Shown here: positions 2,971 through 17,349 of the stretch, piece after piece | How positions within the stretch are numbered: the first letter of the stretch is position 1 | Layout of the letters: every line of letters starts with the position of its first letter | DNA from: Clostridiaceae bacterium | GTDB taxonomy: Bacteria > Bacillota > Clostridia > Peptostreptococcales > Tindalliaceae | Assembly: GCA_011390155.1 (NCBI GenBank) | Contig: JAABSW010000009.1 | Coordinates: 1 to 64,000, forward strand | Direction: 5' to 3' | DNA length: 64,000 nucleotides | Notes under the pieces: generated by a model | What the model was told of the DNA's origin: nothing | What the model saw: only the letters and a program-made list of their open reading frames with translations | The model's database searches: none | Made by a program: the position numbers and the translations under genes

Positions 2971-3100
2971 AATTGTGTGTCCTCCTTACTAGTACGATGT
3001 TCATTGGGTATGAATCATCAAACTTATCTTGATGTGAATGTCCCTTCAGATATGCCTATGCTATAATGAACTAAATGCCTGTTATGATTGGGGTGAAATC

Positions 3101-4957
3101 ATGGCGTCCAAGATCATGTTGATAGCACCGAATGAAGAAATCTACAAAATAGGTATGCAAGTGATCCAGGAAGAACAGTTACCTGCAGACGCACTCATCG
3201 GAAATCTATCTGTTGGTGCTCAACTTGCCAAAGCTTCGGTTGAAGAAGGCTATGAAGTTCTCGTCAGCCGTGGTGGCACTTATTTAGAGATTGTGAACAC
3301 CATTAAACGAGTGCCTTGTGTGCCCATCTACGTTACCACCATTGACTTGATGGAAGCAATGAAGAAAGCGGTGGTTTACAGCAAACGTATTGGCGTTGTT
3401 GGTTATGCCAATACCATCTACGAAGCTTCGTCATTGGGAGATTACCTGCACTATGATGTGGTGGAGATATCTGTTAAGGACCCTGCTCTATTAAAGGAGA
3501 GGTTAAAAACAGAGGCGTTACATGGTCTGAAAGTAATAGTAGGGGACACGATTTCTGTAAAAACTGCCAGGGAAATAGGGTTGAAGGGGATTTTGATAGA
3601 ATCTGGGAAACGCGCAGTTTATGAAGCGCTGATTCGCGCAATGGATCTATCGAGAATCCGCATGAAAGATGCACTGGAGCAAGGCAGACTGATTACCATA
3701 TTGAACTCAGTGGATGAAGGAATCATCGCCACTGACCATGAAGGAACCGTAACACATATAAACCCTGTAGCACTACAGATATTTGATTTTACCGCAAGTG
3801 ATATTATTGGAAACCGTATTCAGGAGTACCTTCCTGATGACAGGGTTAAAGAGGAAATCGTCAACATATCAAACAAACAGTATTTATATAATGCACAACA
3901 GATTGTCTATGAAGGAAGTTATGAAGCCGGCCATGTGATTACCCTTAAGGCTCTCAAAAGTATTCAGGATACAGAGACAAAGGTTAGAAAGAAGCTTCAT
4001 AAAAGCGGCCTCATTGCAAAAAAAGCCATCAAGGATATTTTAGGTGACAGCAGCGCCATAAAAAAAGTAAAAGAGGAAATTATTAAGATAAGTGATTCCA
4101 ATGCCACAGTACTTATTCAAGGGCGGACAGGTGTTGGAAAAGAAATGATCGCCCAGAGCATTCATAACTTGAGTCCACGACGGGAGGGGCCCTTTGTTGG
4201 TGTAAACTGCGCTGCTTTTTCTGAGAGCCTTTTGGAAAGTGAACTCTTTGGCTATGTTGAAGGCAGTTTTACAGACGCCAGAAAAGGTGGAAAAGAGGGC
4301 TTGTTCGAATTGGCTCACAGGGGCACCATATTTCTGGATGAAATCAGTGAAATGAGTTTATCCGTTCAGGCAAAAGTGCTTCGAGTGATGCAGGAACGGG
4401 AAGTTATGAGGCTTGGGGACAACAGAATCATGCCTGTTGATATCCGCATACTTGTTGCAACCAATGAAAGTTTGTGGGATGCGGTGGGGAAAAAGTTATT
4501 CCGGGAAGATTTATATTATCGGGTGAATGTGCTGGGTTTAGAAGTGCCCGACCTGGCACAAAGAAAATCAGATATACCGCTGCTGGCGGAACATTATCTT
4601 AGAAAAAATGCATCATTTCTTCACATTGAACCAGGTTGCTTTGAACCTTTAAAGCGTTTTCACTGGCCTGGTAATGTGAGGCAGTTAAACAATTTTGTGG
4701 AACAGCTGATTGTGTTTACGACGAACAATGAAATAACCATGAGAGATGTTCAAAAACGACTTGATAAGCTCATGCAACAACACAACACCTCTTTATCAGG
4801 GTTGGTTCATCCGAAAAAAAGAATAACGGACAAAATCATAGAAGAAACCCTGGTAAATTTCAATGGTAACCAAACAGCTGCGGCTGAAGCCTTGGGCATT
4901 GACCGTTCTACATTATACCGGCGGCTGAAGAAAATGGAGACGAAAAGCAACAAATAA
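3101..4957 (+). CDS. Sigma-54-dependent transcriptional activator, PrpR family
   Basis: This enhancer-binding protein probably switches on the acid-sugar operon that follows. I chose the ATG at 3101 (GGGGTGA site upstream; begins MASKIMLIAPNEEI) over the upstream in-frame ATG at 3038. Domains in order are PrpR_N ligand-sensing (about 1-170), PAS (about 195-290, SVDEGIIATDHEGTVTHINP), AAA+ (about 310-545) and a Fis-type helix-turn-helix (about 575-618, NQTAAAEALGIDRSTLYRRL). Walker A is GRTGVGKE and Walker B is GTIFLDEIS. The sigma-54 contact loop reads GSFTDA rather than GAFTGA. PrpR_N domains are thought to bind small organic acids, which fits an inducer made from the operon's substrate. A TATAAT element lies at 3062-3067. 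Confidence 0.93.
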   Translation: MASKIMLIAPNEEIYKIGMQVIQEEQLPADALIGNLSVGAQLAKASVEEGYEVLVSRGGTYLEIVNTIKRVPCVPIYVTTIDLMEAMKKAVVYSKRIGVVGYANTIYEASSLGDYLHYDVVEISVKDPALLKERLKTEALHGLKVIVGDTISVKTAREIGLKGILIESGKRAVYEALIRAMDLSRIRMKDALEQGRLITILNSVDEGIIATDHEGTVTHINPVALQIFDFTASDIIGNRIQEYLPDDRVKEEIVNISNKQYLYNAQQIVYEGSYEAGHVITLKALKSIQDTETKVRKKLHKSGLIAKKAIKDILGDSSAIKKVKEEIIKISDSNATVLIQGRTGVGKEMIAQSIHNLSPRREGPFVGVNCAAFSESLLESELFGYVEGSFTDARKGGKEGLFELAHRGTIFLDEISEMSLSVQAKVLRVMQEREVMRLGDNRIMPVDIRILVATNESLWDAVGKKLFREDLYYRVNVLGLEVPDLAQRKSDIPLLAEHYLRKNASFLHIEPGCFEPLKRFHWPGNVRQLNNFVEQLIVFTTNNEITMRDVQKRLDKLMQQHNTSLSGLVHPKKRITDKIIEETLVNFNGNQTAAAEALGIDRSTLYRRLKKMETKSNK

Positions 4958-4980
4958 TCGATGCACACATAACAAGAAGA

Positions 4981-5020
4981 TGCAATGTTGCAAATGCAAT
5001 GTTGCATTTTTTTATGCAAC
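4981..5020 (+). promoter_or_regulatory. Tandem operator palindromes (upstream activator sites)
   Basis: TGCAATGTTGCA occurs twice, at 4981-4992 and 4995-5006, exactly 14 bases apart, followed by a half-site TGCAAC at 5015-5020. Each is a TGCAA-N2-TTGCA inverted repeat, and they lie about 80-105 bases upstream of the -24/-12 promoter, the normal place for binding of a sigma-54 activator. The second copy runs into TTTTTTT, so the same DNA may also end transcription of the activator gene. Binding by the neighbouring PrpR-type protein is inferred. Confidence 0.75.
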
Positions 5021-5085
5021 AATCCGGAATATTGACAAAATTCAGACAATGTGGCCGCATCAACGCTTTCCTCTTAAACGTATTG

Positions 5086-5103
5086 TTGGCATGTAAGTTG
5101 CAT
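5086..5103 (+). promoter_or_regulatory. Sigma-54 (-24/-12) promoter of the acid-sugar operon
   Basis: TTGGCATG-N4-TTGCAT matches the sigma-54 consensus TTGGCACG-N4-TTGCW, with the invariant GG and GC at the right spacing. It lies 42-59 bases before the start of the kinase gene and just downstream of the activator sites. Confidence 0.88.
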
Positions 5104-5144
5104 TATATATAAAAAAGAATTTGGGATGGGAGGAGGGATGTGAA

Positions 5145-6431
5145 GTGTGTGTGGCCATTATTGGTGACGATTTAAGTGGATCCAGTGACACAGCGGTATC
5201 ATTCATCCATTATGGATTTAGAAGTTGCGTTATTAATTACCCGGAAGGTTTTGAGGCAGAAATTAGTGATTGCGATGTTTTATCTGTATCCACTAACACA
5301 AGGGAACTTGATGGACCAGAAGCTGCAAAAATCGTACGCGAGGTCGTGGTTGTTCTTATGAAAATGGGTGTGAAGAACGTATATAAAAAAATTGATTCCA
5401 CGTGGCGTGGCAACGTTGGTTACGAAATTGAAGCCATTATGGAAGCCATGGACATCGATATCGCAGTGATCTGTTCTGCTTTTCCTGAAATGAAGCGTAC
5501 CATAAGTCATGGACACCTCTATGTCGACGAAGTGCAACTTGAAGATACACCAATAGCCGATGATCCAAACAGGCCTGTGAAAGATTCCTTTCTGCCAAGA
5601 TTATTACAGGAACAAACAGACCTGCAGGTGCACTTAATAGACAGGGAAGTTGTTACAAAGGGACCGGAAATTTTGTATGATACCATACTGAACGTCTCCA
5701 ATAATAAAAAAACCATGATACTGGTGGATGCAGTGACAAACGATGACCTTGATACAGTGGCCTCCATCAATCCGCACAATAGTGAGAAGATACTTTTTTG
5801 TGGATCAGCAGGCATGTCCAATGCCATGCTTTCAGCGGGTAAGTTTGCAACTGCCTCAAAAGCGCCTCCGGTCTTAGTGATTGTAGGAAGTGTACATCCG
5901 CAAAACAAAAAAATGATCGATCACACTGTAAAGTACGGAAGTGCCAAAGAAATTTTTATTGATCCTCAGCGATTCGTTGAAGGAATGGACCTAAGTGATG
6001 AGATTAAAAAAACGATTGACCTCATGCGACAGGGAAATAACGTGATCATCCATGCCTATCAAACTACAGAGGAAAGAAAAGTGGCTCGTGTCAAGGGATT
6101 TAGTAAAGGCTTGAACGAATCAGATATTTCACTCCTTATTAACAAAGGGCTGCAGAAAATCGCAGGTGAGGTTTTTAAAGACCATCAAGTGGCAGGGGTT
6201 ATGGTAACCGGTGGTTCAACCGCCTTACATTTTTTGAGAGGTGTTCAGGGTGCCGGTATTCGTATGATTGAAGAACTGGAAGTGGGTGTGCCCTACGGTA
6301 CTGTAATCGGAGGACCTCTCGATGGCACTGGTATTATTACAAAAGCGGGAGGTTTTGGCACTGAAACGGTTATGATCAAAGGAATTAAGTTACTTCAGTG
6401 GAAATATTTGTCAGGGAGGAATCGCCAATGA
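5145..6431 (+). CDS. Four-carbon acid sugar kinase family protein (DUF1537)
   Basis: An ATP-dependent kinase predicted to phosphorylate the terminal hydroxyl of a C4 acid sugar such as threonate or erythronate. The track begins at TTG 5121, but GTG at 5145 has an ideal GGAGGAGG site 8-9 bases upstream and gives VCVAIIGDDLSGSSDTA, matching the family's opening motif (ADDLTGAxDT). Further family marks are KKIDSTWRGNVG near residue 83 and the C-terminal ATP-binding part VTGGSTA with GGPLDGTGIITKAGGFG near 350-415. The length of about 428 residues is normal. It is the first gene after the sigma-54 promoter and is followed at once by a PdxA2-like gene, the pairing known from D-threonate catabolism (DtnK/PdxA2). 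Confidence 0.9.
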   Translation: MCVAIIGDDLSGSSDTAVSFIHYGFRSCVINYPEGFEAEISDCDVLSVSTNTRELDGPEAAKIVREVVVVLMKMGVKNVYKKIDSTWRGNVGYEIEAIMEAMDIDIAVICSAFPEMKRTISHGHLYVDEVQLEDTPIADDPNRPVKDSFLPRLLQEQTDLQVHLIDREVVTKGPEILYDTILNVSNNKKTMILVDAVTNDDLDTVASINPHNSEKILFCGSAGMSNAMLSAGKFATASKAPPVLVIVGSVHPQNKKMIDHTVKYGSAKEIFIDPQRFVEGMDLSDEIKKTIDLMRQGNNVIIHAYQTTEERKVARVKGFSKGLNESDISLLINKGLQKIAGEVFKDHQVAGVMVTGGSTALHFLRGVQGAGIRMIEELEVGVPYGTVIGGPLDGTGIITKAGGFGTETVMIKGIKLLQWKYLSGRNRQ

Positions 6432-7447
6432 AAAACAGACCAATTTTGGCAATTACCATGGGTGATCCATGTGGAATAGGCGCGGAAATAGCAGTTAAAG
6501 CCCTTTCGGAAAAAAGCATGTATGAAGAAGCGCGACCATTGATCATTGGGGATAAAGAAAGAATAAGACAAAGCCTTGCATTTGTGGATATACCATTGAA
6601 AATTAATGTGGTCACAACACCTGATGACGCTGTCTATGAACATGGCACGTTGGATGTTCTCCACATGGAAGTGCCCGGCGTTTCTGAACTGGGTTATGGT
6701 AAAGTCAATGCCCTGGCAGGTGAAGCTGCGGTTACTTATATCTTCAAATCCATCGATTTGGCAAAGGAAAGGCAAGTTGATGCCGTGGTCACGGGACCCA
6801 TCAACAAAGAGTCAATGCACATGGCAGGCCATCATTATCCTGGTCATACAGAAATCTTTGCACAGCGAACAGACACAAAAGATTATGCCATGATGTTGTC
6901 AGCAGAGGGTTATTTTGTCATTCATGTCAGCACACACTGTTCACTCCGGGAAGCCTGTGACCGGGCAAAAAAAGAGCGGGTCAAAAAGGTGATTCAACTG
7001 GCCTACGAATTAGTGACAGTCAATGATATGCCCAACAAAAACATCGGGATCGCAGGGCTTAACCCCCACAGCGGTGAGAATGGGGCTTTTGGAACAGAAG
7101 AGGTGGACGAAATTATTCCGGCAATGGAAGAATCCAGGCAAGAAATCCCTGGTATTCAACTCATAGGACCAGTACCGCCAGACAGCTTATTTGTCAAAGC
7201 GAAGCGTAATGATTATCGGGTGATGGCGGTGATGTACCATGACCAGGGGCATATACCCATGAAAATCATCAATTTTGACGAAGGGGTTAATGTCACACTG
7301 GGACTGCCCATCATAAGAACATCTGTTGACCATGGAACAGCTTTTGGAAAAGCTGGCAAAGGCACAGCTTCCGCCAAAAGTTTACATGCAGCCATAGCGT
7401 TAGGAATTGAAATGGCCTTGAATAAATTTTACAAGAAGGAGGTGTAG
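6428..7447 (+). CDS. pdxA2: PdxA2-like 4-phospho-threonate/erythronate 3-dehydrogenase
   Basis: A PdxA-family NAD-dependent oxidative decarboxylase. Because it follows a DUF1537 kinase, it is better read as PdxA2, which turns 4-phospho-threonate or -erythronate into dihydroxyacetone phosphate and CO2, than as the vitamin B6 enzyme PdxA. The ATG at 6428 has a GGGAGGAA site and overlaps the kinase stop by 4 bases; the track's 6398 start is upstream of that. Motifs are ITMGDPCGIGAEIA at the N-terminus and the metal-binding histidines in GHTEIF, NPHSGENG and YHDQGHIPMK. The length, 339 residues, is standard for the family. Confidence 0.9.
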   Translation: MKNRPILAITMGDPCGIGAEIAVKALSEKSMYEEARPLIIGDKERIRQSLAFVDIPLKINVVTTPDDAVYEHGTLDVLHMEVPGVSELGYGKVNALAGEAAVTYIFKSIDLAKERQVDAVVTGPINKESMHMAGHHYPGHTEIFAQRTDTKDYAMMLSAEGYFVIHVSTHCSLREACDRAKKERVKKVIQLAYELVTVNDMPNKNIGIAGLNPHSGENGAFGTEEVDEIIPAMEESRQEIPGIQLIGPVPPDSLFVKAKRNDYRVMAVMYHDQGHIPMKIINFDEGVNVTLGLPIIRTSVDHGTAFGKAGKGTASAKSLHAAIALGIEMALNKFYKKEV

Positions 7448-7503: not shown

Positions 7504-8571
7504 ATGAATTTAAGAAAATGGATGGTTTTGATTCTGGCATTGGTAATGGTACTATCGGTAGCGGCATGTTCGCCTCAAGAGGAAGCACCGGCAGAAGAGC
7601 CTGAAACACCGGCAGAAGAACCGGCAGAAGAACCAGCAGAAGAACCAGCAGAGCCAGCAGAAGATTACAGCAGCTATCCTGAAAAACCCATCGTTGTCTT
7701 TCAGGGATTTGCCCCCGGTGGCGGAAGTGATGCATTAGCTCAGTTAACACAACCATTTTTAGGAGAAATTTTGGACATTACCTTTGTTAATCAATACATT
7801 CCTGGGGCAACGGGTGCAATCGCCTGGACACAACTGGCGAAATCAACAGACCCAGATGGCTACACCATCAGTATTACCAATACACCAATGTTGCAAACAA
7901 ACTACATTATGAATGAAGACATTACCTATAACATTACAGAACTGACACCAATTGCCAATGTTGTAACTGACCCAGGTTTAATCGTTGTTGGTGCAGACAG
8001 CCCCTTCGAAACCATTGAAGATTTAATGGCAGCAGCAGAAGCAGATCCTGAAGGCATAACAGTGGGTAACTCAGGGGTTGGCGGAGATGATTTCTTCTCC
8101 ACGTTGATCTTCCAAATGGAAACTGGACTGAAATTTATCCTGGTTCCCTTTGAAGGTGACGGACCATCCTGGCAGGCAGCGGCTGGCGGCCAGATTGACG
8201 CATCCTTTAATAACCTGGGCATCACCTTCCCGCAAATTGAAGCTGGCACACTGAGACCGTTGGCCATCTTTGCCGAGGAAAGAGACCCCAACATACCAGA
8301 CATCCCCACCATGAAAGAATTAGGCTATGATATAGTTAACGGATCATCACGGGGCTACAGTGCACCGGCTGGGCTTCCGCAGCCAATACTCGATGAACTG
8401 ATTGCCGCCTTTGAAGAAATGGGAAATGACCCTGAATTCTTGCAGGCAGCAGCAGATCGTGCATTGCCTGTCGACATCAAAACCGGTGATGAATATGCAG
8501 AGTATCTGAGAGGTCACGAAGATATCTTTGGCCAAATCTGGGAAGAAGTTAAGAGCGAATACACACAATAA
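7504..8571 (+). CDS. tctC: TctC-type tripartite tricarboxylate transporter substrate-binding lipoprotein
   Basis: The extracytoplasmic solute receptor of a TTT transporter, capturing a carboxylate for TctAB. It has a signal peptide with lipobox SVAAC at residues 19-23, so the mature protein is lipid-anchored. A repetitive acidic linker of PAEEP units follows (about 24-55), then the Bug/TctC fold starting YPEKPIVVFQGFAPGGGSD, with GVGGDD and FEGDGPSWQAAAGGQID typical of the carboxylate-binding loops. The total is 355 residues. The ribosome binding site is AGGAGGAG. The ligand is presumably the acid sugar degraded by the operon. A stable hairpin lies between this gene and tctB. Confidence 0.93.
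   Translation: MNLRKWMVLILALVMVLSVAACSPQEEAPAEEPETPAEEPAEEPAEEPAEPAEDYSSYPEKPIVVFQGFAPGGGSDALAQLTQPFLGEILDITFVNQYIPGATGAIAWTQLAKSTDPDGYTISITNTPMLQTNYIMNEDITYNITELTPIANVVTDPGLIVVGADSPFETIEDLMAAAEADPEGITVGNSGVGGDDFFSTLIFQMETGLKFILVPFEGDGPSWQAAAGGQIDASFNNLGITFPQIEAGTLRPLAIFAEERDPNIPDIPTMKELGYDIVNGSSRGYSAPAGLPQPILDELIAAFEEMGNDPEFLQAAADRALPVDIKTGDEYAEYLRGHEDIFGQIWEEVKSEYTQ
7584..7665 (+). repeat. In-gene GCAGAAGAACCG/A repeat coding the PAEE linker
   Basis: About six imperfect copies of a 12-base unit (GCAGAAGAACCG or GCAGAAGAACCA) encode a proline-alanine-glutamate tether between the lipobox and the binding domain of TctC. It is a spacer and probably varies in length between strains. Confidence 0.75.
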
Positions 8572-8578
8572 ACCATTT

Positions 8579-8610
8579 CAGCAGGGTAGGGATCAATCTC
8601 TACCCTGCTG
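8579..8610 (+). other. Intergenic hairpin between tctC and tctB
   Basis: CAGCAGGGTAG (8579-8589) and CTACCCTGCTG (8600-8610) form a perfect 11-base-pair stem with a 10-base loop. No T-run follows, so it is not a plain terminator. Stem-loops after binding-protein genes often protect the upstream message and allow more receptor than permease to be made; that role is inferred. Confidence 0.7.
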
Positions 8611-8653
8611 TTACAAGGCCTGATGGCCGAGAAAGGTTCAGGAGGTTCGTCCC

Positions 8654-9124
8654 ATGACAAACACTGTAAAAGTTGGCATTGCATCGATCGTGGCCATCAT
8701 TTTTTCAGCGGTCTTATACCTGGAGACATTAACAATGTCCCGTGCCGCTTACCAACTTCCAAGGATCCTCATTGTGATCATCATTCTACTGGCCATGGCA
8801 ATGTTTGCAGAGGAATACTACAAATCAAAGAAAAAGAAGAGCCAAGGTACTGAGGAGGCTGTTGTAAAACAACCAGAGGATAAATACGACAAAATTCATT
8901 ATGACCGGATTGCCGTTTTTGTGGGTGCCATCACGGTCTACATTTTCAGTATCAAGATTCTGGGGTATTTCATCGTTACCCCCCTCTTCATTATTGGTAT
9001 TTTCAGGTACCTAAAATCGGTTAAAATGACAACGGCCCTCATTATTGCTGTTGGATTTACTGGTTTTATATACATGCTGTTTATCAGATTTCTTCATTTA
9101 CCCATTCCCATTACCATGTTTTAA
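8654..9124 (+). CDS. tctB: TctB family small permease subunit
   Basis: The 156-residue integral membrane protein is the small subunit of the tripartite tricarboxylate transporter. About four hydrophobic segments are visible: two near residues 7-25 and 33-50, then a charged cytoplasmic loop rich in Lys/Glu, then two near 90-110 and 120-150. The sequence is weakly conserved in this family, so the call depends on length, membrane pattern and position between tctC and tctA. The ribosome binding site is CAGGAGG. The overlapping frame at 8623 is a shadow. Confidence 0.85.
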   Translation: MTNTVKVGIASIVAIIFSAVLYLETLTMSRAAYQLPRILIVIIILLAMAMFAEEYYKSKKKKSQGTEEAVVKQPEDKYDKIHYDRIAVFVGAITVYIFSIKILGYFIVTPLFIIGIFRYLKSVKMTTALIIAVGFTGFIYMLFIRFLHLPIPITMF

Positions 9125-9143
9125 GGAGGTGAAATAGAAACCC

Positions 9144-10640
9144 ATGGAATATTTAATGCTTGGATTAAACAACGTAATGACATTCATGAACCTTGCTGCC
9201 ATTGTTGTAGGTACTGCATTAGGCCTTTTTGTTGGTGCAATGCCTGGTTTGTCAGCAACCATGGCCATCGCCATATTGCTGCCACTGACATTTTCTTTGC
9301 CAACTGCCACGGGTATCAGCATGTTGGCCTCCTTGTATTTGGGAGCCATGTATGGTGGTTCAATCGCAGCGATTCTCATTAGAACCCCAGGAACACCTGC
9401 AGCAGCAGCGACGGTGCTCGATGGGTACCCAATGGCACAACAGGGAAGAGCCGGAAAGGCGTTGGGTGTTTCTCTATTCGCTTCCCTTGTTGGCGGCGTG
9501 ATTAGCTCCATTGCTTTATTGACAGTGGCCCCTGTTTTGGGAAGTGTGGCGCTGAAGTTTGGCCCTGTGCAATTGTTTGCCGTAGCGGTGCTGGGCATTA
9601 CCATTATCGGTTCACTTTCACAGGGTTCCACCATCAAAGGCTTATTATCCGGGGTTTTGGGATTACTGCTGGCACTGGTGGGCATGGACCCGGTCACAGG
9701 AAGTGCACGTTTTACCTTTGGCATGATTAACCTGTATTCGGGGATTTCCTTTACGGTTGCTTTAATTGGTCTTTTCTCAATTCCACAGGCCATCAGACTC
9801 ATTGAGAAAGATCAAAAAGTGATTACACAAGTAAACAAATTCAAAGACAGAATGTTACCAACCATGAAAGAAATTAAACAGATCATAGTCACCGTTATTC
9901 GCGGTAGTATTATCGGGATCTTTACGGGGATTATTCCTGGAACAGGTGGAGATACGGCCTGTTGGTTCAGTTACAATGAGGCAAAACGATTTTCCAAAAA
10001 CAAAGCCAACTTTGGTAAAGGGGCCATTGAAGGGGTGGCAGCTGCTGAATCTGCCAATAACGCAGTTGTTGGAGGCGCTTTAATTCCAACATTAACCCTG
10101 GGCATTCCTGGAAGTTCAGCCACTGCGGTGCTGATGGGATCATTAATGGTGCATGGCATTATGCCGGGGCCCACACTCATGACAGAATATGCAGATGTTA
10201 CCTACACGCTGATTTGGGCTTTACTTCTTGCCAATGTCGCCCTGTTCTTTGTTGGGTTGTTATTTACTCGATTGGCTGTAAATGTCGTTAAAATTCCCAA
10301 TCATGTACTGGCGCCGATTATTGTCATTTTATGTGTCATTGGTTCCTTTGCCATTAACAATAGCTTCTTTGAAGTTTATTTAATGCTCATCTTTGGTTTG
10401 CTGGGTTACTTGATGGACAAAATCGGCATGCCCACTGCGCCCATGGTGGTTGGACTTATTTTAGGGTTTATGCTGAACATGAGCCTGTACCAGTCGTTGT
10501 TAATTGGAAGAGGCAGCTGGATGATTTTTCTCCAAAACCCCATTTCAGCAATCCTGCTTCTTGTAGCATTGTTTTCAGTTATCCAATCAACCCCGTTGTT
10601 TGGATGGATAAAGAAAAAAATCGTTGCAAGTAAAATCTAA
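9144..10640 (+). CDS. tctA: TctA family large permease subunit
   Basis: The large channel-forming subunit of the TTT transporter, 498 residues with about 11-12 membrane segments. Family signatures are GAMPGLSATMAIAILLPLTF near residue 32, LYLGAMYGGSIAAILIRTPGTPAAAAT near 65-90, and the second half-repeat GIIPGTGGDTACWFSYNEAKR near 265 with GGALIPTLTLGIPGSSATAVLMG near 310. These glycine/proline loops are thought to line the transport path. It is preceded by TAAGGAGGTGAAA. With tctC and tctB it forms a complete importer inside the acid-sugar operon. Confidence 0.96.
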   Translation: MEYLMLGLNNVMTFMNLAAIVVGTALGLFVGAMPGLSATMAIAILLPLTFSLPTATGISMLASLYLGAMYGGSIAAILIRTPGTPAAAATVLDGYPMAQQGRAGKALGVSLFASLVGGVISSIALLTVAPVLGSVALKFGPVQLFAVAVLGITIIGSLSQGSTIKGLLSGVLGLLLALVGMDPVTGSARFTFGMINLYSGISFTVALIGLFSIPQAIRLIEKDQKVITQVNKFKDRMLPTMKEIKQIIVTVIRGSIIGIFTGIIPGTGGDTACWFSYNEAKRFSKNKANFGKGAIEGVAAAESANNAVVGGALIPTLTLGIPGSSATAVLMGSLMVHGIMPGPTLMTEYADVTYTLIWALLLANVALFFVGLLFTRLAVNVVKIPNHVLAPIIVILCVIGSFAINNSFFEVYLMLIFGLLGYLMDKIGMPTAPMVVGLILGFMLNMSLYQSLLIGRGSWMIFLQNPISAILLLVALFSVIQSTPLFGWIKKKIVASKI

Positions 10641-10659: not shown

Positions 10660-11754
10660 GTGACAATGATGGAAATGATGAAAGGTTTAGTGGCGTACCC
10701 CGATGGCCATTTGGCTCTGGAAGAAGTGCCAGTACCAAAACTGGGTGATAATCCCTATGCACCAAATGATGTACTGGTGGAGGTTCAATACTGCGGGATC
10801 TGTGGCAGTGACGTTCATAAGTGGAAATCTGACAAAAAAGATGTACAGACTGCACCTAAAAAGAATGTGGCGGGCCATGAAATCGTCAGCGTGGTGAAAG
10901 AAGTGGGCCCTGCTGTTACCAAAGTAAAACCCGGTGACCGGGTAGTACATGAAATTGTTACTTTTTACTGTGGCCATTGCCCCAACTGTCTGGAAGGCAG
11001 GTTCAATATCTGCAACACATTACCACCCATGGAAGGCAGAGCCCACTTTATGACAGGTGGGGGTTTTGCCAAATACACCGTGTGGCCGGAACAACAACTG
11101 CATGTTTTGCCTGACAATATCACTGACCGGGAAGCAGTGCTCATTGAGCCAACGGCAGGTTCAGTGCACAGCATTATTACAAGAATGGGGATCAAGGCAG
11201 GTGAATCGGTGGCAATTCTGGGCCCTGGAGCTCGTGGTATTCTTATGGCCCAGGTATGCCAGGCAATAGGCGCCGGCCCCATTTTCATGAGCGGCCTTGA
11301 ACGGGACAGTAGTTACAGATTGGAAATGGCCAAAAAATTGGGAACGGATACTGTGATTAACGTGGATAAAGAGGACATTCGAAAAATCATAGCAGAGAAG
11401 ACCAATGGTGTCGGCGTTGACAATGTGCTGGAAAACACGGGTTCTGTAGAACCCATTGCTGAGTCTCTGGACATTGTGCGTAAAGGCGGCAAGGTGCTTT
11501 GGGCCGGCGGAGGCATACGCGGTGGCATTCATGCGCCTGTTGACACACATAAAATAATCGTAAAAGAAATCACCATTTATGGTGAGATATCACAGATCCC
11601 TTATGACTGGAAAACAGCGATTCATCTTGTGAAAAAAGGAGCAGTACAGTTAAAGCCCCTGGTAACCCACGTGTATGACCTGGAAAACTGGGAAGACGGG
11701 TTTGACCTGGCTGCCACAAGTGCAGAATGCATGAGAGTGGCAATCAAACCGTAA
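10660..11754 (+). CDS. Zinc-dependent medium-chain alcohol dehydrogenase
   Basis: An NAD(P)-dependent dehydrogenase of the sorbitol/threonine dehydrogenase type, likely oxidising a secondary hydroxyl of the operon's substrate. Catalytic zinc ligands are seen in YCGICGSDVHK (Cys near 40) and GHEIVSVVKEVG (His-Glu near 70). The structural zinc site is the four-cysteine cluster in CGHCPNCLEGRFNIC (about 105-120). The cofactor loop is GPGARG near 190. The start is unsure: GTG 10660 is the track's choice, while ATG 10666 or 10675 are possible. The ribosome binding site is weak (TTAGGTGA) compared with its neighbours, hinting at coupling to or lower translation than tctA. Confidence 0.9.
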   Translation: MTMMEMMKGLVAYPDGHLALEEVPVPKLGDNPYAPNDVLVEVQYCGICGSDVHKWKSDKKDVQTAPKKNVAGHEIVSVVKEVGPAVTKVKPGDRVVHEIVTFYCGHCPNCLEGRFNICNTLPPMEGRAHFMTGGGFAKYTVWPEQQLHVLPDNITDREAVLIEPTAGSVHSIITRMGIKAGESVAILGPGARGILMAQVCQAIGAGPIFMSGLERDSSYRLEMAKKLGTDTVINVDKEDIRKIIAEKTNGVGVDNVLENTGSVEPIAESLDIVRKGGKVLWAGGGIRGGIHAPVDTHKIIVKEITIYGEISQIPYDWKTAIHLVKKGAVQLKPLVTHVYDLENWEDGFDLAATSAECMRVAIKP

Positions 11755-11784
11755 GAAAGATCAGTGCAGTAAGGAGGAATTGGT

Positions 11785-13053
11785 ATGAGTTCCATCGATC
11801 TTTTACTTGATCCAATACCGATTCCACGGATGGTAAAAGTGGAACAAACTTTCACAAGGCCAAAAGTGGATGATGTTGAAGTGGAACTGGCACATAAAAT
11901 GAACCTGAGACAGGTGACATCAGGCATTACGCCAGGCATGAAAATAGCGGTTGCAGTGGGAAGCAGAGGCGTCAGCCAGCTTCCCCTGATGGTGAAAACC
12001 ATCATTAGGCTTATTAAGGATGCGGGAGGAGAACCCTTCATCCTTCCCTGCATGGGAAGTCATGGGGGTGCCACCGCAGAGGGCCAGCGGGACATGCTCA
12101 TTGGCATGGGCATCGAAGAAGCGTATGTGGGTGCACCCATCCGTGCCACCATGGAAACAGTGGTGGTAGGCACTTCAGTAAATGGGTTGCCTGCCAACAT
12201 TGACAAATATGCCTACGAAGCTGACGGCATTGTGATCATTAACCGGATTAAACCCCATGTTGCCTTTCGAGGCCCATTTGAAAGCGGGTTAATGAAGATG
12301 GTGACCATTGGTCTGGGAAAACAGAAGGGTGCAGATATTTGTCACGAGCTGGGGTTTGGTAAAATGGCAGAAAATATTCCTGCCATTGGCCGAGTCACCA
12401 TAGAAAAAACCAACATACTCTTTGCTGTGGGTGTTCTGGAAAATGCTTACCATGAAGTATGTCAGGTGGACGTACTGATGAAAGAAGAAATAGAAACCCA
12501 TGAACCCGCGTTGCAGGAAAAAGCCAAAGAATTGGCCCCCAGGCTGTATTTTGATCAACTGGATGTGCTGATCATTGATGAAATTGGTAAGGACATCAGC
12601 GGTACAGGTTTTGATACCAACATGGTGGGGCGCTATCACACACCCTACGCCAGTGGCGGACCCAGCATTACCAAAATGGCTGTGCTGGACATAACCGATA
12701 AGTCCCATGGCAATGGTAACGGGCTGGGAATCCTGGATTTTACTACAAAAAGAGCCTATGATAAATTCGTTTTCGAGATGACTTATCCAAATTCCCTGAC
12801 ATCCACGGTGCCCATGAGTGTAAAAATACCCATGGTGCTTAAGAATGACCGTCAGGCCATACAGGCAGCCATTAAAACATGCAACATACTTGATAAAACA
12901 CAAGTCAGAATGGCCCGGATTAAAAACACTGTGGCAGTGGCTGAAATTCAGGTGTCTGAAAACCTGCTAAGGGAAGTGGAAAAATGTGAATATATGAACG
13001 CCGTCAGTGATCCTAACCACTGGGTGTTTGATGAGGATGGTAATCTGTTGTAG
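11785..13053 (+). CDS. LarA-like nickel-pincer racemase/epimerase (DUF2088)
   Basis: A 422-residue protein of the lactate racemase N-terminal-domain family. LarA and its homologues use a nickel pincer nucleotide to invert the alpha-hydroxyl of 2-hydroxy acids. Motifs are PCMGSHGGATAEGQ near residue 90, where the histidine fits a catalytic position, and INRIKPHVAFRGPFESGLMKM near 155-175 with conserved His and Lys. In an acid-sugar operon it would be expected to epimerise C2 of the substrate. The cofactor makers larB, larC and larE are not in the window. The substrate is not lactate by context, but this is inference. Ribosome binding site AAGGAGG. Confidence 0.8.
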   Translation: MSSIDLLLDPIPIPRMVKVEQTFTRPKVDDVEVELAHKMNLRQVTSGITPGMKIAVAVGSRGVSQLPLMVKTIIRLIKDAGGEPFILPCMGSHGGATAEGQRDMLIGMGIEEAYVGAPIRATMETVVVGTSVNGLPANIDKYAYEADGIVIINRIKPHVAFRGPFESGLMKMVTIGLGKQKGADICHELGFGKMAENIPAIGRVTIEKTNILFAVGVLENAYHEVCQVDVLMKEEIETHEPALQEKAKELAPRLYFDQLDVLIIDEIGKDISGTGFDTNMVGRYHTPYASGGPSITKMAVLDITDKSHGNGNGLGILDFTTKRAYDKFVFEMTYPNSLTSTVPMSVKIPMVLKNDRQAIQAAIKTCNILDKTQVRMARIKNTVAVAEIQVSENLLREVEKCEYMNAVSDPNHWVFDEDGNLL

Positions 13054-13076
13054 CGGGATAAGAAGGAGTTGAGTTT

Positions 13077-14741
13077 GTGGGCAAGGGTGAGAATATACGT
13101 AGTCATGCGGTAACGGAAGGTAGTGACCGTGCAGCCAGTCGGGCACTGTTTTTTGCCACCGGATTAACACGCAGTCAATTGGATCAGCCCCTGGTGGCAG
13201 TGGTCAATTGTTGGAACGAAGTGGTACCGGGATGCGTTCCGCAACGCCAGGTAGCTGAATATGTTAAAAAAGGTATTCGGGAAGCTGGCGGAACAGCCAT
13301 GGAGTTCAACACCATTGGGGTGTGTGACGGAATCGCCCAGGGACACGAAGGCATGAAATACTCCCTGCCCAGCAGGGAAATCATTGCTTACTCCATCGAA
13401 ATCATGCTCCAGGCCCATCAATTTGATGCAGCTGTCTTTCTTTCCAGCTGCGATAAAATAACCCCAGGAATGCTAATGGCGGCAGCCCGGGTGAACATTC
13501 CCTCCATTTTTGTGCCGCCCGGTATTATGCATGCCGGCGAACATAAAGGACAAAAATTGACATTATCCCTTATGCGAGAGTTCATCGGAAAACAACAGTC
13601 AGGTCAGATGACCCTGGAAGAACTGCACGAAATTGAAGAGAAGGCCTGTCCCTCAGTGGGCAGTTGTGCCATGATGGGTACTGCCAATACCATGAACTGT
13701 CTTTGTGAGGTTTTGGGCATGGCAATGCCACTCACAGCTACATCCTTTGCCGGTTCCAGGGAAAAGTTGATGGAGGGTGAAGTGGCTGGGAAAAAAATAA
13801 TGGAATTATTCAAGCATGATACCAAGCCCTCGGACATTATGAAATCCGCTTCCTTTGACAACGCCATCAAGTTTGTCATGGCCATTGGGGGGTCAACCAA
13901 TTCAGTGCTTCACATACCGGCCATTGCCAATGAGTTGGGCATAGAATTGAATCATGAAGCTTTTGACAAGTGTTCACACATTCCCTATGTGGCAAAGATC
14001 AACCCTTCCGGACCACGGCCAGTGGAAGATTTTCACGCAGCAGGAGGCGTGCCTGCAGTGCTCAAATCATTACAGGATTACCTTCATACAGACCTGGTCA
14101 CTGTATCGGGCAAAACCATTGGAGAAGTGGCAGACCAGGCTGTCTGGAGTGACCTGGAAATGATCAGGCCGGCACAAAAACCAATAGCAGTGGACAGTGC
14201 TTTAAGGGTTTTATGGGGGAATTTAGCTCCTGATGGAGCCATTGTAAAGAAATCTGCCGTTGCTGAAAACATGCAGGTGCATAAAGGCCCTGCGGTTGTG
14301 TTTGACAGCATGGAAAACGCCATTGAGGCGGTGAAGAAAAAGGAAATTGAACCTGGCTCTGTCATTGTCATACGATACGAAGGTCCCACAGGGGGGCCGG
14401 GCATGAGGGAAATGCAGGCGATCACTGCCATGCTAATGGGTACTGGCCTGGCGGAGAGCACTGCCCTGGTCACTGACGGCAGGTTTTCCGGTTCCACACG
14501 TGGCCCTTGCATCGGACATGTGTCTCCGGAAGCAGCCCTGGGTGGTCCCATTGGATTGGTGGAAAATGGCGATCTTATTGAAATCGATATTCCAGGTGGA
14601 AAACTGTCGGTTTTCATTTCCGATGAAGAAATCAAGAAACGAAAAGAGTCCTGGAAACCCCTCATAAAACATCATGGTGGCGTTTTGGGACTATATGAAA
14701 AGGTGAAGCCCCAGGCAAAAAACGGGGCTGTATGGGAATAA
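13077..14741 (+). CDS. IlvD/Edd family dehydratase
   Basis: An iron-sulfur dehydratase of the dihydroxy-acid / phosphogluconate dehydratase family, which removes water from a 2,3-dihydroxy acid to give a 2-keto-3-deoxy acid. The three cluster cysteines lie in VVNCWNEVVPGC (about residue 45), SSCDKITPG (about 125) and SVGSCAMMGTANTM (about 195). DGRFSGSTRGPCIGHVSPEA near 470 is the substrate and metal loop. It starts at GTG after GAAGGAG. The 554 residues match IlvD length. Its place between a LarA-like protein and UxaA subunits argues for an acid-sugar substrate rather than branched-chain amino acid synthesis. Confidence 0.88.
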   Translation: MGKGENIRSHAVTEGSDRAASRALFFATGLTRSQLDQPLVAVVNCWNEVVPGCVPQRQVAEYVKKGIREAGGTAMEFNTIGVCDGIAQGHEGMKYSLPSREIIAYSIEIMLQAHQFDAAVFLSSCDKITPGMLMAAARVNIPSIFVPPGIMHAGEHKGQKLTLSLMREFIGKQQSGQMTLEELHEIEEKACPSVGSCAMMGTANTMNCLCEVLGMAMPLTATSFAGSREKLMEGEVAGKKIMELFKHDTKPSDIMKSASFDNAIKFVMAIGGSTNSVLHIPAIANELGIELNHEAFDKCSHIPYVAKINPSGPRPVEDFHAAGGVPAVLKSLQDYLHTDLVTVSGKTIGEVADQAVWSDLEMIRPAQKPIAVDSALRVLWGNLAPDGAIVKKSAVAENMQVHKGPAVVFDSMENAIEAVKKKEIEPGSVIVIRYEGPTGGPGMREMQAITAMLMGTGLAESTALVTDGRFSGSTRGPCIGHVSPEAALGGPIGLVENGDLIEIDIPGGKLSVFISDEEIKKRKESWKPLIKHHGGVLGLYEKVKPQAKNGAVWE

Positions 14742-14756
14742 CAAGGAGGGCTGCGC

Positions 14757-15035
14757 ATGCCGACTGTTGACGCGATAGTGATCAGTGAAAAAGACAGTGT
14801 TGCCACGGCACTGAGGTCGATACAAACAGGAGAAAATATTCAATTGAAGGTGTCAGATAAAAGCTATGAGATTGTCATATTGACTGATATACCGATTTTC
14901 CATAAAGTGGCACTTCATGAAATCGGGCAAGGTGAGAAAATCTACAAATATGGTGAAGTCATTGGTGAAGCGGTTTCGCGAATAAAAGCAGGGGAACATG
15001 TCCATTCGCACAACACTGTTACCTTAAGGGGGTGA
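14757..15035 (+). CDS. UxaA-type dehydratase small subunit (SAF domain)
   Basis: A 92-residue protein made of one SAF domain, equal to the N-terminal domain of altronate dehydratase. The pattern PIFHKVALHEIGQGEKIYKYGEVIG followed by IKAGEHVHSHN is diagnostic; the histidines probably help bind the metal or substrate at the interface with the large subunit. It ends 4 bases before the next gene, which holds the rest of the enzyme, so the two probably form one complex. Ribosome binding site AAGGAGG. Confidence 0.88.
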   Translation: MPTVDAIVISEKDSVATALRSIQTGENIQLKVSDKSYEIVILTDIPIFHKVALHEIGQGEKIYKYGEVIGEAVSRIKAGEHVHSHNTVTLRG

Positions 15036-15039
15036 ACAC

Positions 15040-16197
15040 ATGACATTTATGGGCTATCAACGTTCTAATGGAACGGTGGGGATCAGAAATCACGTATTAA
15101 TTTTGCCAACAGTGTCGTGTTCAACAGAAACGGCCCGTATTATTGCCGGCCAGGTGAAAGGAGCTGTTACCTTTCAAAATCAACAGGGGTGCGGGCAAAT
15201 GGGTGCTGACGCCAAGCGTACCATTGATATATTGATTGCACTGGGAAGTCATCCAAACATCAGCGGCGTGGTTGTCGTAGGATTAGGTTGTGAAACAGCA
15301 CAGCCTCACAAAGTGGCTGAAGAAATCGCTAAAAGTGGAAAACCTGTAAAAACCACTGTGATTCAGGAAGAAGGCGGTACACTGGGGGCCATCACCAAAG
15401 GCATTCGATACGCAACAGAAATGGCGCTGGCGGCTTCCATGGAAGAAAAGGTGCCCTGCGACGTATCAGAATTAATCGTGGCATTGGAATGTGGAGGTTC
15501 TGACCCAACCTCCGGGGTAGCTTCCAACCCCAGCATGGGATATGCCAGTGATTTGCTGGTGGCAGCAGGTGGCACCACCATATTGAGTGAAACCACAGAA
15601 TTTATTGGTGCCGAACATGTGCTTGCAGCACGTGCGGCGGATGAAGAAGTGGCAAATGATATTATGAACATTGTTCACCGGCTTGAAAAATCTACCAAAG
15701 AGCGTGGAGAAGACTTGCGGGGAGGGAACCCGTCCCCTGGTAATATTGCAGGCGGTATCACAACCATTGAGGAAAAGTCCCTTGGGTGCATCAATAAAGG
15801 AGGGTCTTCCCCCGCAGTGGAAGTGGTGGAATATGGGGAAAAACCAAGGCGCAAAGGATTGGTGATCATGGATTCCCCGGGTTTTGACATTGATTCCATT
15901 GTTGGTATGGTAGCCGGCGGTGCACAAATGTGCGTCTTTACCACAGGACTTGGGACACCGGTTGGCAATGGATTGGTTCCCGTTATTAAACTGACGGGAA
16001 ATTCCATGACCTACGAAAAGATGAAGGATAACATTGACATCAACGCCGGCGTTATTTTGGATGGCGGTAAGACCGTGGAAGAAGTTGGCCAGGAAGTCTA
16101 TGATGAAATGCTGCGGGTTGCCAATGGTAAAACAACAAAAGCAGAAATATTTGGATTCAGCGAGTTTGGTGTTTGGCGCTGCGGAACCAGCGTTTGA
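15040..16197 (+). CDS. UxaA family dehydratase large subunit
   Basis: A 385-residue catalytic subunit of the altronate/galactarate dehydratase family, which dehydrates acid sugars to 2-keto-3-deoxy acids using iron. The opening GYQRSNGTVGIRN is the family signature. NQQGCGQMG near residue 50, GLGCETAQP near 90, ALECGGSDPTSGVASNP near 155 and the cysteine-rich loops fit the metal site. The sugar acid is not deducible; a C4 or C6 acid is possible. Translation is likely coupled to the SAF-domain gene just upstream (GGGGTGA overlapping its stop). Confidence 0.9.
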   Translation: MTFMGYQRSNGTVGIRNHVLILPTVSCSTETARIIAGQVKGAVTFQNQQGCGQMGADAKRTIDILIALGSHPNISGVVVVGLGCETAQPHKVAEEIAKSGKPVKTTVIQEEGGTLGAITKGIRYATEMALAASMEEKVPCDVSELIVALECGGSDPTSGVASNPSMGYASDLLVAAGGTTILSETTEFIGAEHVLAARAADEEVANDIMNIVHRLEKSTKERGEDLRGGNPSPGNIAGGITTIEEKSLGCINKGGSSPAVEVVEYGEKPRRKGLVIMDSPGFDIDSIVGMVAGGAQMCVFTTGLGTPVGNGLVPVIKLTGNSMTYEKMKDNIDINAGVILDGGKTVEEVGQEVYDEMLRVANGKTTKAEIFGFSEFGVWRCGTSV

Positions 16198-16224
16198 TGT
16201 AACATCGATATCTCCCCCTTTACA

Positions 16225-16267
16225 TGAACCGGACAATGGCCAGGATCAACGGCTGCTGTCCGGTTCA
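16225..16267 (+). other. Strong intergenic hairpin before the hydroxyacid dehydrogenase gene
   Basis: TGAACCGGACA (16225-16235) pairs perfectly with TGTCCGGTTCA (16257-16267), an 11-base-pair stem. There is no T-run after it, so it may act as a processing or stability element that uncouples the last gene of the operon from the others. It is followed by AAGAATCCTGTTATAT, a near match to the dispersed motif seen elsewhere. Confidence 0.65.
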
Positions 16268-16359
16268 GCAGTTAAGAATCCTGTTATATGGAGATTGGCA
16301 CATTACATGGGATTGTACTATCGCTAAGAGGAGCAATCAAAAAGAGAGGATGTGATTTT

Positions 16360-17349
16360 GTGGGAAAAATAAAAGTATTTGTCACAAGTCAATTTCCTGA
16401 AGAAGCAATGCAATTATTGGGCACGCACTATGACCTTGTGATGAAACCTCAAAATGAGCAACTGTCAAAAGAAGCATTAATTCAAAAAGCAGCAGGATGC
16501 AAAGCGATCCTCGTTTCTGGCACAAGAATCGATTCGGAAATATGTGAAGCCATTAAATCTCATTGCCAGATTATCACCTGTTCTGGAGTCGGTTATGACA
16601 ACGTGGATGTTGAGGCAGCGACACGCAGTGGAATTTTGGTAACGCATAACCCAAGGGTAGTCACCGATGCAACAGCTGACTTAACATGGGGACTGCTTAT
16701 GGCGGTTTCAAGACGGATTGTTGAGGGGGATGGCTTTGTACGCAGCGGAAACAAGCAGTGGGGTCCGAGTAATCTATTGGGAGTACAGGTAAGTGGAAAA
16801 ACCCTGGGAATCATTGGTGCCGGACGCATCGGTACAGCTGTTGCAAAGCGCGGGATAGGCTTTAATATGCGTATACTCTATACAGGAAGAACACCCAAGG
16901 AAGCGTTTGAAAAAGTAACAGAGGGTGCTTATGTCAGCAAAGAGGTCTTGTTTAGTGAGTCCGACTTCATCTCGGTTCACCTGCCTCTCAATGCATCAAC
17001 GCATCATTATGTTGGGGTTGAAGAACTGAACATGATGAAAAAACATGCTATCCTGATCAATACATCAAGAGGTCCTGTCATTGATGAAACTGCACTGATT
17101 TCTGCGTTGAAAAATCAATTAATAGGAGGAGCCGGACTTGATGTGTTTGAACACGAGCCAAATGTTAACATTGGGTTGGCTTCATTGGATAACGTGGTTA
17201 TGACTCCCCATATAGGCACTGCAACCCTTGAGACAAGAATAAGAATGGGAGAGCTGTGTGCGCAAAAAATAGGTGAGGCCCTGGAAGGACGCATTCCCAC
17301 TGATTGCCTTAACCCCACCGCATTGTCTAACCGTGTGTCCAGCATCTGA
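16360..17349 (+). CDS. D-2-hydroxyacid dehydrogenase (NAD-dependent)
   Basis: A member of the phosphoglycerate/glyoxylate-hydroxypyruvate reductase family that interconverts 2-keto acids and D-2-hydroxy acids. I chose GTG at 16360 (GAGAGGATG site; begins MGKIKVFVTSQ) rather than the ATG at 16288. The NAD loop is GIIGAGRIG near residue 150. The catalytic Arg is in INTSRGPVIDE near 230, the Glu in DVFEHEP near 262 and the His in TPHIGTATLETR near 283. At 329 residues it is of normal length. It closes the acid-sugar cluster and may reduce a keto acid made by the dehydratases. Confidence 0.9.
   Translation: MGKIKVFVTSQFPEEAMQLLGTHYDLVMKPQNEQLSKEALIQKAAGCKAILVSGTRIDSEICEAIKSHCQIITCSGVGYDNVDVEAATRSGILVTHNPRVVTDATADLTWGLLMAVSRRIVEGDGFVRSGNKQWGPSNLLGVQVSGKTLGIIGAGRIGTAVAKRGIGFNMRILYTGRTPKEAFEKVTEGAYVSKEVLFSESDFISVHLPLNASTHHYVGVEELNMMKKHAILINTSRGPVIDETALISALKNQLIGGAGLDVFEHEPNVNIGLASLDNVVMTPHIGTATLETRIRMGELCAQKIGEALEGRIPTDCLNPTALSNRVSSI

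Follow-up and report, generated by a model that had tools for sequence, protein, structure and literature searches.

Clostridial sigma-54 activators of the NifA/FhlA class are among the closest described systems; they use upstream activating sites of the form TGT-N10-12-ACA, and the commonest regulon in the published set is a single operon adjoining the activator gene (PMC6615313). The locus examined here, in a window comprising the whole stretch of 64,000 nucleotides (64 kb) that we analysed, appears to share with that class (PMC6615313) a single-operon regulon beside the activator gene, and the operator common to its relatives, TGWTGCA-N3-TGCAWCA, contains TGT-N11-ACA and likewise lies upstream of a -24/-12 element. 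It differs in the inner TGCA..TGCA and in its placement immediately after the activator's stop codon, within a predicted terminator hairpin; the core in the window itself reads TGT-N10-ATG. The window's sugar-acid operon is absent from those listed for the 39 groups of the published set (PMC6615313, Table 1), and a sugar-acid operon of anaerobic clostridia would gain a sigma-54 regulator that the published regulon reconstruction lacks (PMC6615313).

We consider it quite probable that the window contains the sigma-54 control region of a sugar-acid operon in which the half-sites of a PrpR_N activator double as a terminator hairpin. Judged from sequence, the sigma-54 enhancer and promoter are of the ordinary kind; what is unusual, and recurrent, is the predicted design, an operator inside a terminator. 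A partial search of the literature on sigma-54 systems found no report of operator/terminator overlap, which is not proof of absence.

Activator, promoter and downstream operon

The activator gene (3101..4957, + strand) encodes, by Pfam matches, PrpR_N, PAS, sigma-54 AAA+ (Sigma54_activat, 216.6 bits) and DNA-binding HTH_8 (43.6 bits) domains. Its open reading frame opens at 3038, and the likely start, ATG 3101, was chosen via the homologue in Acidaminobacter hydrogenoformans. It is the only PrpR_N activator in the genome and is encoded directly upstream of the control region. The initial annotation had proposed a PrpR-type activator, which stands as regards the PrpR_N domain but not as regards identity with PrpR, the activator of propionate catabolism. 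PrpR_N, the sigma-54 AAA+ domain and a Fis-type HTH are common to both proteins, whereas that of the window has an extra PAS domain, scores below both PrpR equivalog cut-offs (TIGR02329, 382.5 against 499.2 bits; NF011953, 349.3 against 703) and has no adjoining propionate (prp) genes, its neighbours being sugar-acid genes (DUF1537, PdxA, tripartite transporter). By its domains and neighbourhood the activator is PrpR-like, not PrpR.

The sigma-54 contact loop of the activator is GSFTDA, as against GAFTGA. The changes A2S and G5D are each found in working activators (LevR, FlgR), the double change not being described there (PMC3162934); our collection of PrpR_N activator loci, drawn from 391 genomes of the class and 198 of the order, numbers 98, and of these relatives none but the window and A. 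hydrogenoformans carries both changes. The A. hydrogenoformans activator is 62% identical and, up to the end of its locus, the order of the genes is the same. No orthologue at that level of identity was found in closer relatives of the window species, so the distribution of the system, as sampled, is patchy. Upstream, between an adenosylhomocysteinase-like gene and the activator, there is a strong hairpin (AACCCCG..CGGGGTT) with a T-run at 2905-2970, which suggests that the activator gene probably has its own promoter.

The predicted promoter, TTGGCATG-TAAG-TTGCAT (= TTGGCATGTAAGTTGCAT; 5086..5103, + strand), has the full consensus TTGGCAY..TTGC, in which the canonical 10 bases separate GG from GC; a second -24/-12 element is present in A. 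hydrogenoformans. The TTGGCAYRNNNNTTGC promoter pattern occurs once in the 64 kb (0.09 expected), the genome has one rpoN (a Sigma54_DBD gene, E 5.4e-65), and for 77 of the 98 PrpR_N activator loci the 450 bp downstream contain a -24/-12 element on the activator's strand. The full consensus and the single rpoN support the earlier assignment of a sigma-54 promoter to the operon that follows. The same annotation had called the region complete and its transcription start precise; the elements are present, and both words exceed the sequence evidence, the start being placed by spacing at about 5113.

Sugar-acid operons with a DUF1537 kinase and a PdxA homologue belong to D-threonate-type pathways, and the window operon likewise has a kinase, a PdxA-type dehydrogenase and a transporter. 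Its first gene encodes a DUF1537 (four-carbon acid sugar) kinase (5145..6431, + strand; SBD_N, NBD_C), with the start set by homology with locus L002 and a ribosome-binding site AGGAGG (5131..5136, + strand) 8 nt before GTG 5145. The mechanically called start, TTG 5121, is probably wrong, and GTG 5145 behind AGGAGG fits the A. hydrogenoformans homologue. Domain matches identify next a PdxA homologue (6398..7447) and the tripartite tricarboxylate-type transporter genes TctC, TctB and TctA (7504..10640), and the probable remainder (10660..17349), co-transcribed to judge by spacing and strand, encodes a zinc dehydrogenase, a nickel-pincer isomerase, an IlvD-type dehydratase, altronate/galactarate dehydratase parts and a 2-hydroxyacid dehydrogenase, all of these genes on the + strand. 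In contrast to D-threonate-type operons, the window thus adds the nickel-pincer isomerase and the dehydratases. The D-threonate kinase model gives the operon kinase 250.9, below its cut-off of 450; the genes encode what is, by domain content, a sugar-acid catabolic set for which the D-threonate assignment falls short of the model cut-off. The nickel-pincer cofactor-dependent isomerase (group 22, 11785-13053) scores 531.5 against a family cut-off of 400, and its substrate may hint at the pathway of the operon.

Half-sites, operator register and recognition helix

Between the activator gene and the operon, TGCAATGTTGCA is present at 4981-4992 and again at 4995-5006, with a 14-bp period, followed by a run of seven Ts (T7) at 5007-5013 and by a fifth half-site, TGCAACA (5015..5021, + strand), where GCAACAAT is conserved. 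These elements are as the initial annotation described them, and the two palindromes lie 80-105 bases upstream of 5086, as it had stated. Behind its activator's stop codon A. hydrogenoformans has TGCAACGTTGCA twice, with the same 14-bp period, then a T-run, GCAACAAT and TTGGCACAAACCTTGCG; in the alignment of the two species 46 of 53 positions are identical in the operator block and 25 of 53 in the spacer after it.

The pair is rare. TGCAANNTTGCA has two copies in the 64-kb window, where chance would give 0.26, and both are the ones described here; a close pair (within 12 bp) is found in one of the 391 class genomes, which is this genome, the reversed control pattern having no match in the same set. 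The six TTGCA/TGCAA half-sites in 40 bp are also the densest cluster of the window, the next unrelated one having three; when the 128-bp interval was shuffled 130 of 5000 shuffles reached six, a weak test because the repeats themselves set the dinucleotide content. Genome-wide, single copies of TGCAANNTTGCA are at chance level, with five other sites, four of them inside open frames, and no good -24/-12 element was found near any of the five. A wider regulon was rejected: with the other single palindromes at chance level, mostly in open frames and away from good -24/-12 elements, the activator probably controls this operon alone.

The half-sites start at 4981, 4988, 4995 and 5002, that is, as a 7-bp array of alternating orientation, which can be grouped in two ways. 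The initial annotation had taken them as two helically offset palindromes, and in keeping with this reading two independent operators TGCAATGTTGCA, 14 bp (about 120 degrees) apart, would each hold a dimer. In either species the two copies are the same, and between species both have changed in step at one central base (TG in the window, CG in A. hydrogenoformans); several sites are present at many clostridial target operons (PMC6615313). However, the common operator of the relatives, TGWTGCA-N3-TGCAWCA, has oppositely pointing half-sites that make one dyad centred on the hairpin apex, and 12-bp sites with a 14-bp offset would, we presume, leave their dimers too little room. We therefore regard two independent operators as unlikely, although worth keeping in mind, and the register of the initial annotation as probably wrong; the comparison favours the apex dyad. 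The window counterpart is the predicted core operator TGTTGCA-AA-TGCAATG (4986..5001, + strand), assigned by motif and by apex position in relatives, between an outer TGCAA (4981..4985) and an outer TTGCA (5002..5006), both on the + strand and both kept in A. hydrogenoformans. From the centre of this core to the -24 GG is 95 bp, or 9.05 turns.

The type of half-site tracks the recognition helix. Among the collected loci, TTGCA/TGCAA half-sites lay behind the activator gene in 10 of 12 with a D/N/H-R-S/T-T recognition helix and in 9 of 85 without it. This rule, formed on the initial loci, was applied unchanged to 19 new loci from the phylum, where the counts were 10/11 and 1/8 (p 0.001). With the HTH left out of the tree, the helix signature changes about five times on it, and the independent pairs go the predicted way, too few for significance. 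The pairing of helix and half-site supports the suggestion that TGCAA/TTGCA is the recognition sequence of the adjacent activator, and it offers, for many activators as yet uncharacterised, a testable operator code in which D/N/H as the opening residue of the recognition helix goes with half-sites of the TTGCA type. A sister clade with T for D in the helix has AAACGTTT-type repeats at the same hairpin position, downstream of the activator (L036, L037, L040, L041, L056, L058, L059 and L062).

The operator block as a predicted terminator

The RNA of the block folds into a single hairpin (-18.7 kcal/mol, z -4.35 over 4975-5025), which begins 19 nt after the activator stop codon and is followed by T7. 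We take it as the predicted intrinsic terminator of the activator gene (4977..5013, + strand; hairpin 4977-5010, T-run 5007-5013). A simple terminator scan of the + strand did not list this hairpin, the stem of which is A/T-rich with two G-U pairs. No other hairpin was found between operator and promoter, where the stretch folds no better than shuffles. The A. hydrogenoformans counterpart folds at -17.9 kcal/mol and is followed by TTTTTATT.

For 14 of the 19 activators of this operator type, the window and A. hydrogenoformans included, the operator lies in a T-run hairpin (the operator of L146 is a TGATGC variant missed by the pentamer count), while the other five have a separate terminator further down (L020, L021, L024, L029 and L046), which indicates that the predicted overlap is not obligatory. 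In L021 and L024 the best operator match, TGATGCA-N3-TGCAAYW, opens with the TGA of the activator's stop codon.

Within the hairpins the operator arms are conserved, so that arms of different species still pair (0.88), whereas the 4-6 bases outside seven 17-bp operators vary in sequence, yet pair at 0.95-1.00 with their own partners and at about 0.4 when swapped, in hairpins that had been picked for stability. When the operator was located by motif alone, a motif derived from the same loci, there were 49 outer pairs as against 28.8 (sd 4.0) after swapping, a count that none of 5000 swaps reached, and a T-run followed the hairpin in 13 of 16 loci. Compensatory changes beyond the bound sequence are what one would expect in a terminator stem and not in an operator, and they support the terminator reading. 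The idea that the same DNA may also end the activator transcript thus gains from the hairpin, the T7 and the covarying stems in relatives; the activator's probable binding site would seem to serve also as the RNA hairpin at which its message ends, and to do so in many related bacteria. One short DNA element would then be under two constraints, sequence for the protein and complementarity for the RNA hairpin.

Hairpin and T-run might instead arise as a by-product where palindromes lie close together, and the block would then be an operator and no terminator. Tandem palindromic sites always form an inverted repeat, and five relatives keep a separate terminator. Moreover, hairpin arms behind PrpR_N activators are overall no more palindromic than shuffles, a result that also leaves unsupported the general notion that every activator's terminator is its operator (strict tandem palindromes are present in no more than 3 of 66 PrpR_N loci, albeit with 0.06 expected). 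Against a by-product stand the covariation of stem bases outside the operator, the want of another hairpin between operator and promoter in the window, and the T-run on the correct side in 36 PrpR_N loci versus an A-run on the other side in 11, and we judge it improbable. If the block were a terminator and nothing more, with the activator bound at some other place, this would suit the position of the block directly behind a stop codon and the T-run at its end. Terminators, however, do not need TTGCA, the half-site type tracks the recognition helix, and half-sites are found outside the hairpin (5015-5021) and in relatives with a separate terminator, all of which makes this alternative very improbable indeed.

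Proposed mechanism

Sequence and comparison give the elements and show them to be conserved, and they also give the match of half-site type to helix and the covarying stem in relatives; from these we infer binding, a ligand, a start site and termination as follows. The activator, encoded directly upstream, would be a one-component regulator that binds the TTGCA/TGCAA half-sites located immediately after the stop codon of its gene. With ligand present, it would contact sigma-54 RNA polymerase at 5086-5103 via DNA looping, and transcription would proceed from about 5113 into the DUF1537/PdxA/Tct operon. As RNA, the same half-sites would form the apex and stem of the terminator at 4977-5013, and activator transcripts would stop about 70 bp before the promoter, leaving the operon insulated. 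The few independent origins of the helix signature and the unusual contact loop GSFTDA are points against this explanation.

More tentatively, and with rather more doubt than confidence, we infer an effect of bound activator on termination: in one activator lineage the operator may have evolved as the terminator apex, with the two functions coupled, such that the bound activator alters termination of its own transcript and the terminator shields the promoter from read-through. If termination and binding do interact, the element would be a compact self-limiting switch with built-in feedback.

A second family, of PAS-type activators, has TCTCA-N3-TGAGA sites repeated immediately after the stop codon, often with a hairpin and T-run (L105, L109, L121, L129, L130 and others), possibly the same operator-in-terminator design.
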